A stretch of DNA of 64,000 bases from Nautilus pompilius (lineage: Eukaryota; Mollusca; Cephalopoda; Nautilida; Nautilidae), in assembly GCA_018389105.1 (NCBI GenBank), contig JACATO010001073.1, positions 148,501 through 212,500 of the forward strand, read 5' to 3'. Shown here piece after piece: positions 1,406 to 61,449 of this stretch. Below the pieces are notes generated by a model. The model was not told the DNA's origin. It was given only the letters and a program-made list of their open reading frames with translations, and did not search any database. The position numbers and the translations under genes were made by a program. Position 1 is the stretch's first letter, and each line of letters begins with the position of its first letter.

Positions 1406-26667
<25,262 letters not shown>

Positions 26668-42498: not shown

Positions 42499-43505
42499 AG
42501 AGGCCAAAATCGATGAGACCATAACCGACGTCATGTGATTACGTTATAGACGAGGCTGTAATCGACGCCATGTGATTACGTTATAGACGAGGCTGTAATC
42601 GACGTCATGTGATTACGTTATAGACGAGGCTGTAATCGACGTCATGTGGTTACGTTATAGACGAGGCTGTAATCGACGTCATGTGATTACGTTATAGACG
42701 AGGCTGTAATCGATGTCATGTGATTACGTTAAAGACGAGGCTGTAATCGACGTCATGTGATTACGTTATAGACGAGGCTGTAATAGACATCATATGATTA
42801 CGTTATAGACGAGGCTGTAATCGACGTAATGTGATTACGTTATAGACGAGGCTGTAATCGACGTCATGTGATTACGTTATAGACGAGGCTGTAATCGACG
42901 TCATGTGATTACGTTATAGACGAGGCTGTAATCGACGTCATGTGATTACGTTATAGACGAGGCTGTAATCGACGCCATGTGATTACGCTATAGACGAGGC
43001 TGTAATCGACGTCATGTGATACGTTATAGACGAGGCTGTAATCGACGTCATGTGGTTACGTTATAGACGAGGCTGTAATCGACGTCATGTGATTACGTTA
43101 TAGACGAGGCTGTAATCGATGTCATGTGATTACGTTAAAGACGAGGCTGTAATCGACGTCATGTGATTACGTTATAGACGAGGCTGTAATAGACATCATA
43201 TGATTACGTTATAGACGAGGCTGTAATCAACGTAATGTGATTACGTTATAGACGAGGCTGTAATCGACGTCATGTGATTACGTTATAGACGAGGCTGTAA
43301 TCGACGTCATGTGATTACGTTATAGACGAGGCTGTAATCGACGTCATGTGATTACGTTATAGACGAGGCTGTAATCGACGCCATGTGATTACGCTATAGA
43401 CGAGGCTGTAATCGACGTCATGTGATTACGTTATAGACGAGGCTGTAATCGACGTCATGTGATTACGTTATAGACGAGGCTGTAATCGACGCCATGTGAT
43501 TACGC
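42499..43505. repeat. 37-bp minisatellite with an 11-unit higher-order period
   Basis: About 26 tandem units reading GACGTCATGTGATTACG, then TTATAGACGAGGCTGTAATC. Diagnostic variants (TGTGGTT, GATGTC with TTAAAG, AGACATCATAT, GACGTAATG, GACGCC with CGCTATAG) recur in the same order. The TGTGGTT variants at 42646 and 43052 are 406 bp apart, which is 11 units less one base, the loss being in the unit near 43020. Upstream 42499-42526 is a degenerate edge unit. No open frame crosses the array. Confidence 0.97.
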
Positions 43506-51559: not shown

Positions 51560-51611
<52 letters not shown>

Positions 51612-51815
51612 TGATGGAGGATGGAGACAAGAGAGATGGAGAGAGAGATGGAGAGAGAGAGATGGAGAGATGGAGAGAGAGAGAGAGATGGAGATGGAAA
51701 GATGGAGAGAGAGAGATGGAGAGAGAGAGAGATGACGTCCATATACAGAGAGATGACGTCAGTATACAGAGAGAGAGAGACAGATGACGTCCATATACAG
51801 AGAGATGACGTCAGT

Positions 51816-51889
<74 letters not shown>

Positions 51890-51893
51890 GTCA
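51560..51893. repeat. GA microsatellite with embedded CRE-containing units
   Basis: GA runs enclose units of the form ATGACGTCAGTATACAGAG (51753-51830). Perfect TGACGTCA palindromes lie at 51754-51761, 51806-51813 and 51886-51893, with TGACGTCC variants at 51733 and nearby. The unit is related to that of the array at 55672-56800. Arg/Glu-rich frames across it are artefacts. Confidence 0.9.

Positions 51894-53727: not shown

Positions 53728-53729
<2 letters not shown>
52274..53729. other. Intergenic, nothing recognised
   Basis: AT-rich with TA runs near 52885 and 53192 and poly-C/poly-G runs. A short frame starting MIEGINDYL at 53679 is followed by GTAAGC, which resembles a splice donor, but nothing else supports an exon. 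Confidence 0.45.
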
Positions 53730-53730
<1 letters not shown>

Positions 53731-53759
<29 letters not shown>

Positions 53760-54712
53760 TCTCTCTCTCTCTCATATAATCTCACTCTCTCGTATAATCT
53801 CACCTCTCTCTCTCACCTCTCTCTCTCATATAATCTCACCTCTCTCTCACCTCTCTCTCTCCTCTCTCATATAATCTCATCTCTCTCTCACCTCTCTCTC
53901 TCTCATATAATCTCATCTCTCTCATCTCATCTCTCATCTCATATCATCTCTTTCATCTCATCTCATTTCTCTCTCTCTCATATAATCTCACCTCTCTCTC
54001 TCTCATATAATCTCACCTCTCTCATATAATCTCACCTCTCTCTCTCTTATAATCTCACCTCTCTCTCACCTCTCTCTCTCATATAATCTCACCTCTCTCT
54101 CTCATCTCATCTCTCATCTCATAGCATCTCTTTCTCATCGCATCTCTCTCTCATCTCTCTCTCATATCATGTCTCTCTCATCTCATCTCATTTCTCTCTC
54201 TCTCACCTCTCTCTCTTTCTCTCTCGCATCTAATCTCATCTCTCTCTCATATCATGTCTCTCTCATATCATCTCTTTCATCTCTCTCTCATCTCATCTCA
54301 TTTCTCTCTCTCATATAATCTCACCTCTCTCTCTCTTTCTCTCTCTCATCTAATCTCATCCCTCTCTCATATCATGTCTCTCTCATATCATCTCTTTCAT
54401 CTCTCTCTCATCTCATCTCATTTCTCTCTCTCATATAATCTCACCTCTCTCTCTCACCTCTCTCTCTTTCTGTCTCTCATCTAATCTCATCTCTCTCTAA
54501 TCTCATCTCTCATCGCATCTCTCTCTCTCTCATATCATGTCTCTCTCATATCATCTCTTTCATCTCTCTCTCATCTCATCTCATTTCTCTCTCTCCTCTC
54601 TCTCTCATCTCATCTCTCTCCTCACACTCTCTCGTCTCATCTCATCTCTCTTATCTCTCTCCTCACTCTCTCTCATCTCATCTCATCTCATTTCTCTCTC
54701 TCTCTCTCCTCC
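53731..54712. repeat. CT-rich satellite with CATATAATCTCAC units
   Basis: About 980 bp of CTCTCT blocks interspersed with CATATAATCTCACCTCTC and CATATCATGTCTCTC. A block of roughly 110 bp (MSLSYHLFHLSLISSHFSL when translated) appears at 54254, 54372 and 54537, showing recent local duplication. The apparent Ser/Leu-rich proteins are artefacts. Confidence 0.93.
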
Positions 54713-55671
54713 TTATACCAAGTCAGATATATATCCCTTACACGAGTCCAACGTCACGTAAGTTTTTAAAAAAATGTTTTAGCTTCCCGTTAGGCGGTAT
54801 CGACGCTTCGACAAGAAATTATTTCCCCATACGAATGAATGCTTTCAGAATAAGATGTTGGCAACACTGCACGAAAATCTGTTGCCGACTGTCGTCGCTC
54901 CTAAGTAAATTGAACGCTTCGCTCTGTTAAAAGAAAATAATGGCTATAATCAGTTTTTTCTCAGCCCTCGTCGGCGCTGGTGGAAATCTTTGGGTTTATG
55001 TAGCCGAGGTCTTCTCCATCTCACAGGCAAAGAAGCCAACAGGAGGAGAAAAAAAAGAGACATTTTTAGAATTCAAAATCTATTGCAAATTTAATAAAAA
55101 GTAAGCTGAATTAAAATATAGAAATTAAAGACCTAAAATATGCTAAAAAATAAAAAAATATATACTAAAAATACCCCATGCATCAATCGATTTATATTAT
55201 CAGCATCATCATCGATAATTTATTTATTACGTGGTTTATCAAAAATACAATTGACAAAATTCGCCATCGATGTCGCAGTGGACGCCTGAATAAAACAAAC
55301 AAAAAAAAAAAAACACAGGAAAAGAAAATGAATTACGGCTACAAAAATATTTTACAAATAAATCTAAATGTTGTTAACTCGTAATATTTCGGCATGTTCG
55401 TTCTGGAAAACAGATTCCGAAGTAGAAACGGAGCTGTATATTCACAATTACCAGGAGAGATGACGACTTCTCGTTCTTTGCGCGTGTCTTGATTATTATT
55501 CCCGCAAGACCGTTAACGTTAGGCGTTGGCTACACGTCGGGGTACAGGGTTTAGTAGTTTTGCAAGAAAGTGGGCGGCGGCGGCAAGGTTCCCTTCCCCG
55601 AGGGCAGTATGCTATCTTGGAGTGTACCACGTGGTTTGCTACACATGTAGTACTATGTTAAAAAAAACAGA
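54713..55671. other. Intergenic, nothing recognised
   Basis: A 54-residue frame at 54940-55104 (+), beginning MAIISFFSALVGAGGNLWVY, was noted but has no recognised relatives. The rest is AT-rich. Confidence 0.45.
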
Positions 55672-56820
55672 GAGAGATATGACGTCAGTACAGCGAGAGA
55701 TATGACGTCAGTACAGGGGGAGATATGACGTCAGTACAGGGAGAGATATGACGTCAGTACAGAGAAAGATATGACGTAAGTACAGGGAGAGATATGACGT
55801 AAGTACAGGGAAAGATATGACGTCAGTACAGAGAAAGATATGACGTCAGTACAGCGAGAGATATGACGTCAATACAGGGGGAGATATGACGTCAGTACAG
55901 GGAGAGATATGAAGTCAGTACAGAGAAAGATATGACGTAAGTACAGGGAGAGATATGACGTCAGTACAGGGAGAGATATGAAGTCAGTACAGAGAGAGAT
56001 ATGACGTCAGTACAGAGAGATATGACATCAGTATATTGAGAGCGAGAGAGAGAGAGAGAGATGATGTCAGTACAGAGAGAGAGAGTGATGATGTCAGTAC
56101 AGAGAGAGATATGACGTAAGTACAGGGAGAGATATGACGTCAGTACAGGGAGAGATATGAAGTCAGTACAGAGAGAGATATGACATCAGTATATTGAGAG
56201 CGAGAGAGAGAGAGAGATGATGTCAGTACAGAGAGAGAGAGAGAGTGATGATGTCAGTACAGAGAGAGATATGACGTAAGTACAGGGAGAGATATGACGT
56301 CAGTACAGGGAGAGATATGAAGTCAGTACAGAGAGAGATATGACATCAGTATATTGAGAGCGAGAGAGAGAGAGAGATGATGTCAATACAGAGAGAGAGA
56401 GTGATGATGTCAGTACAGAGAGAGATATGACGTAAGTACAGGGAGAGATATGACGTCAGTACAGGGAGAGATATGACGTCAGTACAGAGAGAGATATGAC
56501 GTCAGTATATTGAGAGCGAGAGAGAGAGAGATGATGTCAGTACAGAGAGAGAGAGTGATGATGTCAGTACAGAGAGAGATATGACGTCAGTACAGGGAGA
56601 GATATGAAGTCAGTACAGAGAGAGATATGACATCAGTATATTGAGAGCGAGAGAGAGAGAGAGAGATGATGTCAATACAGAGAGAGAGAGTGATGATGTC
56701 AGTACAGAGAGAGATATGACGTAAGTACAGGGAGAGATATGACGTCAGTACAGGGAGAGATATGAAGTCAGTACAGAGAGAGATATGACATCAGTATATT
56801 GAGAGAGAGAGAGAGAGAGA
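55672..56820. repeat. CRE-bearing satellite array (about 23-bp unit)
   Basis: Units of GAGATATGACGTCAGTACAG plus two to four bases repeat across 1.1 kb. I count about 17 perfect TGACGTCA palindromes plus TGACGTAA, TGAAGTCA, TGACATCA and TGATGTCA variants. From 56033 a higher-order block marked by ATATTGAG recurs at 56191, 56351, 56507, 56638 and 56797, mostly about 158 bp apart with one shortened copy of 131 bp. GA runs separate the blocks. Confidence 0.97.
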
Positions 56821-58760: not shown

Positions 58761-60491
58761 ATCTCTTTATTGTTGTTGTTGTTGTTGCATAACGTCCTTT
58801 CGAGGAGTAAAACTTTGAAGTCTGGACTGGAGGTTGGATTCGAAAAGAAAGCAATCAAGAAAGAAGGTTAAAGGCTATTTCTTCTTTAAATATGAAAAAT
58901 GAATCTATTAGTTTCCTCTCGAGGTATTAAGAACAAAGTTCTATTTGCTTGAAAGGAGTTACTTTGATAAACCGATTGTTAGATTACAATTCTGTTGTTG
59001 TTGACAGTTATGCAGATTCTATACGAAAGGCCTAAAAGTCACCAATTATAGTGTTTTTTTTTGGTTATTTATTCTCCCAGCAGCTTCGAAATCGACTTTC
59101 CCTTTAGTGTTTTTTTTCTGGCCATTATTAAAGGACACATAATTTACAGCAATCCGAGAACGAGCGGTATTAGAAAATTGAGTAATTACAGGACAATTTA
59201 TCCAGTAATTTAGCTGAAATAGCACCAATTATCCCAACTTGGGGACAAAAGGAACTCATTTTATTATTTTACATAAAAGCGTTTTACAGTCTATCAAAGA
59301 AGAAAAAAAACGAATAACGTAAAATATTTTAAAAAGTTGTTTAAATATTCGAAGGAAAAAAAAGATGAAAGCGAGATTACAAAAATCGTGAGCAACTTTC
59401 ATTAAAGATAAAGGCGCTAAATGGAGTTTTAAGGATGCATTTGTTTGACCTTCTTTATACCATTACCACCATCCCTCAAGTCTGCAAAGTTGAGCCGTAG
59501 AGGCTGTGACACGCGATGTCTCCCTCAGTAACATAACTCCCGGTGACGAAAATTCTGCATCATGTCGACTCCGCGTGTTTCGCATTATCGAGTATGCAGA
59601 CTATAACACACAGCCAGGCCAGCAAATACCAGCTAGTACTTCCTGGCTGTAGTTGTATAATATCCCTAGAGATGATCATCGGATGCCGGGATGGACTGTT
59701 TTTAAACAGATGTCTCTGCCTATCCCATAGGTTCTTGTTTTTCCTTATCTTTGCCTAATACTAACAAACGTCTTTTCTTTTGGATTGTTTGCAGAACCAC
59801 CATCCGAAATATGATTAGCATTATTAGATGATATTGTGAGGATTACAACTATTAACAATGATAAAATAAATCACTGGTGAGAGAGAATACAGCCCATCAA
59901 GGAGTGTGAAAGATGCTGACCATCTGAAAATAAGCAAATTTGAGCATGCGCAGAAAGAAGCGAATTTAGCTCCCCTGGTGGCCGATTCATAAACTACAAA
60001 GGTTGGAGAGCCGAAAGTAAACCGATCTTGGCTTATCTTGGACAAGTCGGTAGTCTTGAGGTCTGTCTGATAACAGATAACAGGAATTGTTTTTTTTTTT
60101 TTTAATGCTTCACATTTGTTTTTCTGAAAAAAATATTTTATACTTAAAATAAGTTTACGTACAAAAACCAAACGACTAACAAAAGACCCTTATAACCTGT
60201 ACCGTTCTTTCGGCGATGTGCGCATGCGACGTGAGGGAGCCGATTTAACGTATTTAGCTGGTCATGAACGTTTTAGTTATTCTGTAAACAGCTTGTGACC
60301 CTTGCAAACAGTTTACCCGCGCAGAGATCGTTGCGGAAATAACCTACTGCTTCCAGGCAACCAACGTTTTGGTCGACAGCCTTTTAAAAAAAACAAAACA
60401 GAAAGACTAAGTGATTATTAGTGTAATTGCCGCACAATTCACCAGCCTCTTTAACTCGCTCGGCCTTCTCATCTTCTCCCAAACCGGCGAG
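58761..60491. other. Upstream region of the NIDO gene
   Basis: AT-rich sequence with a GTT run at 58769-58787, a T run at 60090-60103, and moderately CpG-rich DNA at 60200-60380 just before the exon, which may contain the promoter. A TAA at 60408-60410 closes the reading frame upstream of the ATG. No TATA box was recognised with confidence. Confidence 0.5.
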
Positions 60492-60695
60492 ATGTGTTCC
60501 AGAACCAGCTCGAAGACTTCTCTTGCCTTTCTCATTTCACTGTCTACGGTCTGGTGCCTTACCGAGAGGGAGTTTACACCGTACGGAACACAACACCACG
60601 ATCAACAAACAGAGGATGCAGATGACGGATTGACAGGCCCTATCAGCCTGCGGATACCCTTTCATTTCATGGACAAATCCTACAATCAAATTTAT
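60492..60695 (+). CDS. First coding exon of a secreted NIDO-domain protein (rest outside window)
   Basis: The first ATG after an in-frame stop (TAA 60408) opens 68 codons that end at a consensus donor GTAAGT (60696), phase 0. Residues 9-22 (TSLAFLISLSTVWC) form a signal-peptide core. Residues 27-68 read EFTPYGTQHHDQQTEDADDG, LTGPISLRIPFHFMDKSYNQ and IY. This matches the start of the NIDO domain (PYG...DD...S.xI.L.xPFxFFxxxYxxIYV) shared by nidogen, alpha-tectorin, SUSD2 and MUC4-type extracellular proteins. In the family the next residues are V-x-x-NG; the genomic Val after the donor is intronic, so this should be the start of the next exon. I found no such exon up to 64000. Full identity is therefore open. 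G at -3 gives a fair Kozak context. Confidence 0.75.
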
Positions 60696-61449
60696 GTAAG
60701 TTATCTGCAGTCTTTCCGAAGCATTTACGCTGCTGACAGTAAATACTCAATAATTAGCATTTTTTTTTCTTTTCTTGGCATCCGAGGCTAAAGTGAAGCC
60801 AGAATTATTCAACGGTCTGTAATATTGTAAACTCTCTGTGTTTGTCTATTCAAGTGAATTTATACGATTACCAGTGTAAAAACCACGTGTCTGCTTCGTT
60901 TCTTACCATTTACAGACCCGTTTTCTTTCGATGGTTATCTGTAGCCAGAAAAAGTAGTGGAAATGATTCTCCCATTATCTCTTGCTTTCTGCCTTAAGGG
61001 ATGCATGGCATAGACGCTCTCCGAATATCAAGAACAGTGCTCGTCTGGCTCGTTTGTGCTAAGACAGGTCTATTCTCACGCCCGCAACAAAGTCGCAATA
61101 TTCTGTTTCTCTATAAAGCACTCACTGGGTGATGCAATAACCTTGGTTGGCGCTGTAGAAACGAAGTAATTCTTGTTTGGTGAAAAAAATGTGTCAATCC
61201 TCTAAGTTATTTCCACGTTAGTGGACAGGAAATCGTTTATTATTTTTAAAAGATAATAAGTATAATCAATTTATTTCTTGTCATAAGACGTTTGGACGTA
61301 AGATTTATAACCCGTAGGTGCAAGAATAAAAATAACAACAGTGGACTTAAATGCTGATTTAATAAAAGTATCTCTCCCCTTTACCCTGATAACCGCGGAG
61401 CAAATTATTGAGGAGTCTGTTAGGTAATTTGCTAAATATTTAGACTCTG
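60696..61449. other. Start of the first intron of the NIDO gene
   Basis: No exon encoding the expected NTNG-type continuation was found. The sequence is AT-rich and otherwise featureless. Confidence 0.5.

Follow-up and report, generated by a model that had tools for sequence, protein, structure and literature searches.

The window, a 64,000-nucleotide stretch of the Nautilus pompilius genome, contains a tandem array embedded in GA microsatellite sequence at 55667..56820 of the forward strand, as delimited by TRF (55667-56796, period 23) and GA/core scoring (55669-56820). Its 45 octamer-bearing units include 17 perfect TGACGTCA palindromes, the octamer that constitutes the CREB/ATF cAMP response element (CRE), and these 17 units represent putative CREB/ATF sites. 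An exact search of the whole window yields 22 perfect TGACGTCA, 17 of them inside the array, versus a mean of 0.65 and a maximum of 3 in 100 whole-window shuffles. The approximately 17 perfect CREs of the original prediction are thus an exact count, and its statement that most other units are one base off extends to all 28 imperfect octamers, each of which is one substitution from TGACGTCA; the commonest variant, TGATGTCA, was missing from those it listed. Among the 45 octamers that are followed by a GTAC-like tetramer, 17 read TGACGTCA, 10 TGATGTCA, 7 TGACGTAA, 6 TGAAGTCA, and 5 TGACATCA. Octamer positions 1, 2, 3, 6, and 8 are invariant across these units, and the variable positions C4, G5, and C7 are kept in 29, 40, and 38 of the 45, respectively.

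The array is composed of two forward-strand parts with different periodicities. The left part (55672..56021) consists of regular 23-bp units of the form GAGATA-TGACGTCA-GTACAG, in which the CREs are mostly perfect. The right part (56023..56820) is a higher-order repeat of ~158 bp, in which octamer variants recur in the same order and marker spacings are 158, 160, 156, 131, and 158 (five intervals, one shorter). The 23-bp unit proposed in the original prediction therefore holds for approximately the left third of the array, while from ~56020 onward the repeating unit is the ~158-bp one. Because the order of the octamers repeats, every 23 bp on the left and every ~158 bp on the right, the 28 imperfect octamers correspond to far fewer mutations that have been copied along.

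Several other features of the window bear on the array or lie near it. A second GA array with CREs, at 51563..51893 of the forward strand, harbors three TGACGTCA (at 51754, 51806, and 51886) and two TGACGTCC; the first two TGACGTCA have GTATACAG on their right side. Two GA tracts lack the module and have zero CREs, namely a comparable GA/CT array at 53728..54708 and a CT array at 22407..23012, both on the reverse strand. A 37-bp minisatellite at 42522-43504 (26.6 copies, 95% match) is not GA-based, and its consensus unit contains CGACGTCATG, i.e., the heptamer ATGACGT of the fission yeast M26 motif on the opposite strand. An open frame at 8668-9228 matches the HTH_48 domain of Mos1-type transposases. 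The NIDO first exon that had been placed 3.7 kb downstream of the array is unconfirmed: the frame at 60411-60791 may presumably, as judged by eye, resemble the start of a NIDO domain, and it gives no Pfam family match up to E = 10 with HMMER filters on. Taken over its full length, the window is poor in CpG (observed/expected ratio, o/e, of 0.70), while the 7.4 kb around the array has a CpG o/e of 0.96.

The module is not confined to this locus. The 21-mer AGAGATATGACGTCAGTACAG, hereafter the seed, occurs in 2902 copies in the 727.6-Mb assembly (2558 contigs), and its reversed control in 0. When the octamer between the seed flanks is left blank, the genome contains 5005 matches, versus 71 for the control; from 2902 seed copies against 5005 blank-octamer matches, ~58% of such units keep a perfect CRE and 42% have lost it. 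The same tandem unit is found at many loci within unrelated flanks (2902 seed copies; 41 arrays compared), as in a dispersed minisatellite or satellite family. Viral contigs have zero exact matches to two forms of the core, and within the library searched, the core strings led to no description of a CRE/GA family, one string appearing once in a C. elegans paper.

The comparison set comprises 41 arrays, i.e., the window array and 40 fetched arrays. The first 100 matches listed for the seed form 41 clusters, and all of these except C27:367506 were fetched (contigs C1 to C27), which makes the sample non-random. The fetched arrays were chosen by an exact seed match that includes the CRE, and their embedding in GA is partly by construction, as the seed contains AGAGATA and ACAG and the edges were set by GA/core scoring. 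Four loci from the blank-octamer list (L049-L052, the array of L052 being covered in part) stand outside the 41-array counts, and L001-L008 were left out. In three of these four, the locus holds 16, 17, or 8 perfect CREs, while the long GA tract of L050 includes just one unit, a degenerate one. At L051, the CRE array starts directly behind CAGGTGAGT, which is splice-donor-like, and the array may be intronic. The flanks of the 40 fetched loci have a CpG o/e of 0.965; one locus, L023, lies in a CpG-depleted neighborhood (o/e 0.29) and has 13 CpG-transition versus 3 perfect octamers.

Together, the 41 arrays hold 359 perfect octamers in 17,972 bases, or ~20 per kb. Extrapolated to the genome, seed-bearing arrays would number ~1,200 and hold ~10,300 perfect CREs, figures that derive from the first-listed contigs and could be severalfold off; the chance expectation, from window shuffles scaled to the genome, is ~7,000 perfect CREs. 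The 295 kb beyond the seed arrays contains 58 perfect sites; manual sorting places 49 of them within arrays or at array edges and leaves 9 isolated.

In the arrays compared, the family has as its shared unit (TA)TGACGTCAGTAC, a non-GA island of 12-14 bp surrounded by GA dinucleotides that are in phase. The commonest islands are TATGACGTCAGTAC, with 110 copies in 36 arrays (14 of its bases lie inside the seed), and TGACGTCAGTAC, with 64 copies in 20 arrays. All 41 arrays have their GA runs on the same strand as the core, partly as a result of the seed choice, and a pure GA run of at least 8 is found at the left edge in 35 arrays, at the right edge in 34, and at either edge in 40 of 41. Since the seed fixes its own phase and polarity, the 359 perfect octamers were divided into 107 seed copies and 252 others that were counted apart. 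These non-seed octamers keep one GA phase and one polarity: the base before is A in 244 of the 252, GTAC comes after 133 of them and before none, and where two of them are less than 30 bp apart, the spacing is an odd number in 83 of 95 cases, the outcome that GA phase demands. Spacings and higher-order repeats vary from array to array across the 41. Beyond the seed arrays, the octamer also turns up with other neighboring bases, for example in two CRE arrays (L029 2-887 and L040 4502-5440) that have TGACGTCATTAC in place of TGACGTCAGTAC and perhaps represent a sister form of the module. In L021 and L017, TGATGTCA units carry a (TGA)n expansion, which looks like a trinucleotide repeat that arose from the mutated palindrome.

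The 41 arrays have unrelated flanks, which share nothing beyond the control level. A blastn comparison of 82 flanks of 600 bp returns 1 pair, which is not at the junctions, and with simple repeats excluded, no 12-mer from the 100 bp next to a given edge is common to two of the 41 arrays; in control stretches farther out, as many 12-mers as in the near-edge flanks, or more, are shared. The GA tract is the sole visible feature common to the sites. GA tracts do not, for their part, necessarily contain the module: among 11 GA arrays detected without the seed, 8 lack a CRE, including the window arrays at 22407-23012 and 53728-54708.

Arrays resemble each other more within a region than between regions, as in a dispersed satellite family. 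Sharing of 24-mers is 0.203 for arrays on the same contig versus 0.103 for arrays on different contigs, a contrast reached by 13 of 2000 label permutations, by 2 of 2000 without contig C1, and by 33 and 37 of 2000 when widely shared words are removed. The clearest indication comes from the double-CRE 31-mer TGACGTCAGGAGAGATATGACGTCAGTACAG, which has 65 genomic copies in 37 arrays. Contig C1, which at 1.05 Mb makes up 0.14% of the assembly, holds 15 of the 65 copies and 8 of the 37 arrays. C1 is rich in the family as such (37 of 2902 seed copies by our own count), and this richness predicts 0.8 copies of TGACGTCAGGAGAGATATGACGTCAGTACAG versus the 15 observed. A looser double-CRE variant is present in 11 of 15 C1 arrays and in 1 of 26 others. 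Beyond C1, TGACGTCAGGAGAGATATGACGTCAGTACAG is found on 22 contigs with one to five arrays each and is not limited to one region. Arrays on different contigs can also be identical over 64-66 bp, as L014 is with L028 and L031. The same-contig 24-mer sharing and the excess of TGACGTCAGGAGAGATATGACGTCAGTACAG on C1 indicate that the spread is at least partly regional.

The arrays compared thus occupy many loci in one polarity and phase, lie within unrelated flanks, differ in spacings and higher-order repeats, and share variants regionally. This pattern probably arose from a minisatellite module with a CRE that passes from one GA microsatellite to another, through repair driven by GA homology or through reintegration of circles, and is then amplified locally. 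A GA tract would first break or stall; polypurine GA can form triplex DNA. Repair would then anneal the broken tract to another GA tract, often one that is close in the chromosome or the nucleus, or, alternatively, a circle excised from an array would reintegrate via GA homology. By either route, a CRE-bearing segment would be copied into a new GA tract, within which unequal exchange and slippage could amplify it. bZIP factors may bind the resulting arrays, but the pattern can be explained without such binding. The original prediction offered an enhancer, a bZIP sink, or an expanded neutral repeat as readings; the last fits best, with the amendment that the repeat is not a local oddity, as it belongs to a genome-wide family. 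The window array looks more like a short module spreading between GA repeats than a dedicated enhancer of a neighboring gene, and the latter finds no support here.

The spread of the module has to be weighed against selection on the octamer. It is unlikely that the octamer is retained as a CREB/ATF (bZIP) site, with the arrays serving as dispersed enhancers or decoys and the GA tracts giving open chromatin. GA tracts could open chromatin through GAGA-binding proteins, and the density of ~20 perfect CREs per kb in the 41 arrays counts in favor of such a role. The octamer is also common to arrays in which the neighboring bases differ, such as the TGACGTCATTAC arrays L029 and L040, and counted by unit it is retained somewhat better than its non-GA neighbors. 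Over 40 loci, the octamer has a per-base retention of 0.964, GTAC one of 0.929, and the ATA ahead of the octamer one of 0.835; in the unit-level comparison of octamer and GTAC, 96 of 129 units are intact in each test (40 loci); and mean mismatch is ~0.08 in the octamer versus ~0.18 in its neighbors (29 of 40 arrays, at least three non-seed units).

This advantage recedes when copies of one change are counted once, i.e., when an event is defined as a variant type per array. The 8-bp octamer then has 21 events versus 12 in the 4-bp GTAC (2.6 versus 3.0 per base, p = 0.71), and with the CpG set aside, the remaining 6 bp has 11 (1.8 versus 3.0 per base, p = 0.29). The original prediction had named equal mutation inside and outside the palindrome as the result that would speak against function; the rates differ by unit and are alike by event. 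Moreover, the CpG pair, which a perfect CRE requires, takes 10 of the 21 octamer events, 6 of them CpG transitions. By unit, CpG transitions make up 99 of 197 one-step variants, some within (TGA)n expansions. The perfect octamer is gone in 42% of units with intact flanks; as a reference value, under equal per-base loss ~76% of AGAGATATGACGTCANNNNAG would keep GTAC (0.58^(4/8), from 2902/5005). The presence of the family at very many loci also gives no reason to single out one neighbor gene. On balance, passive decay appears to explain the octamer variation, and the better unit-level retention leaves room for a weak constraint on the octamer.

Decay of the CpG through regional methylation was considered as the cause of octamer loss and is unsupported overall: flank CpG content and octamer decay are correlated with a Spearman coefficient of -0.17 (p = 0.35; 32 arrays, at least 4 informative octamers). 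The 7.4 kb around the window array is not CpG-depleted, yet 15 of its 32 perfect-or-CpG-transition octamers are transitions. This weaker case for methylation-driven decay slightly lowers confidence in the spreading module and slightly raises it in selection on the octamer.

A further possibility, and a rather doubtful one, is that the palindrome acts as an M26-type meiotic hotspot, in which a bZIP factor would open the array, breaks would form, and GA-tract repair would spread and amplify the module, amounting to self-dispersal. In S. pombe, the M26 motif ATGACGTCAT (7-bp form ATGACGT) is described as requiring Atf1-Pcr1, an ATF/CREB factor, and as strongly linked to breaks, and four of five S. 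pombe-type hotspot motifs, including M26, create hotspots when placed in budding yeast (PMC3534124). The same source reports that natural breaks in S. cerevisiae, unlike those in S. pombe, show no association with either M26 form (PMC3534124). The core of the arrays contains ATGACGTCA, and the units carry the ATGACGT core of M26. TGACGT is also found in 3 of 38 unrelated minisatellites of the fetched DNA, as counted after low-complexity, GA-type, and CRE-family units were dropped, a number reached by 11 of 5000 shuffles. One of the three is the window array at 42522-43504, which prompted the test and without which 2 of 37 carry TGACGT (127 of 5000 shuffles); the other two are at L015 4790-4881 and L036 2295-2448. 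Some other 6-mers are at least as common: ATCACG and CACGTA occur in 4 of the 38 minisatellites, and the count for AT-rich 6-mers reaches 7. Hotspot motifs are, in addition, expected to be eroded by biased conversion. The more general proposition, that a recombinogenic 8-bp bZIP palindrome would propagate itself from tract to tract without a transposase and yield many arrays and chromosome-regional dialects, is likewise held with little confidence.

The arrays are very unlikely to be the central repeats of a non-autonomous transposon of the Helentron/HINE type. Such elements disperse satellite-like arrays in the Pacific oyster and have a microsatellite segment in the left flank, and the oyster Cg_HINE arrays, as described in PMC7492417, have flank similarity that stretches over 50-100 bp, whereas the 41 arrays here have no near-edge 12-mer in common and a single off-junction blastn pair. 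On the basis of the flank blastn and k-mer comparisons, a transposon carrier with conserved ends is ruled out for the 41-array sample; these comparisons would miss a carrier whose ends fall within the GA tract. A separate origin in every GA tract is scarcely credible, and so is an assembly artefact, error-prone though GA tracts are in assembly: TATGACGTCAGTAC is common to 36 of 41 arrays (14 of its bases being in the seed), the reversed seed control is 0, and modules as long as 64-66 bp are common to arrays on different contigs, for which reason separate origins were set aside.

The CRE/GA family is a naturally occurring example of a short and recognizable module that GA microsatellites have in common and for which no carrier element is visible; through its regional dialects, the range over which it is transferred can be measured. 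If bZIP factors bind the array CREs, of which ~10,000 are extrapolated, the family would matter for how CREB/ATF maps of this animal are read. It could also be used to ask whether, outside yeast, repeats spread with the help of CRE/M26 sites.

The family can be compared with four known systems. Like the Cg_HINE arrays of Crassostrea gigas, which are Helentron-borne, it consists of satellite-like arrays dispersed in an animal genome; the oyster arrays are described as sharing their flanks, while the 41 arrays here do not (PMC7492417). With the M26/CRE meiotic hotspot described in fission yeast it has the identical core ATGACGTCA (PMC3534124, PMC9775316), which here belongs to tandem sites in GA tracts whose recombination activity is putative. 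The octamer is likewise identical to the cAMP response element, and here it resides, as a putative binding site, in a drifting tandem repeat. The euchromatic arrays of the 1.688 satellite on the Drosophila X chromosome are short, scattered in single-copy DNA, and more alike when they are neighbors, and their spread has been attributed to circles and microhomology. The arrays described here resemble them in being short and scattered and in being more alike when nearby. The difference lies in the unit, which is ~359 bp in the 1.688 satellite and here is a 12-14 bp palindrome-bearing island within GA microsatellites.
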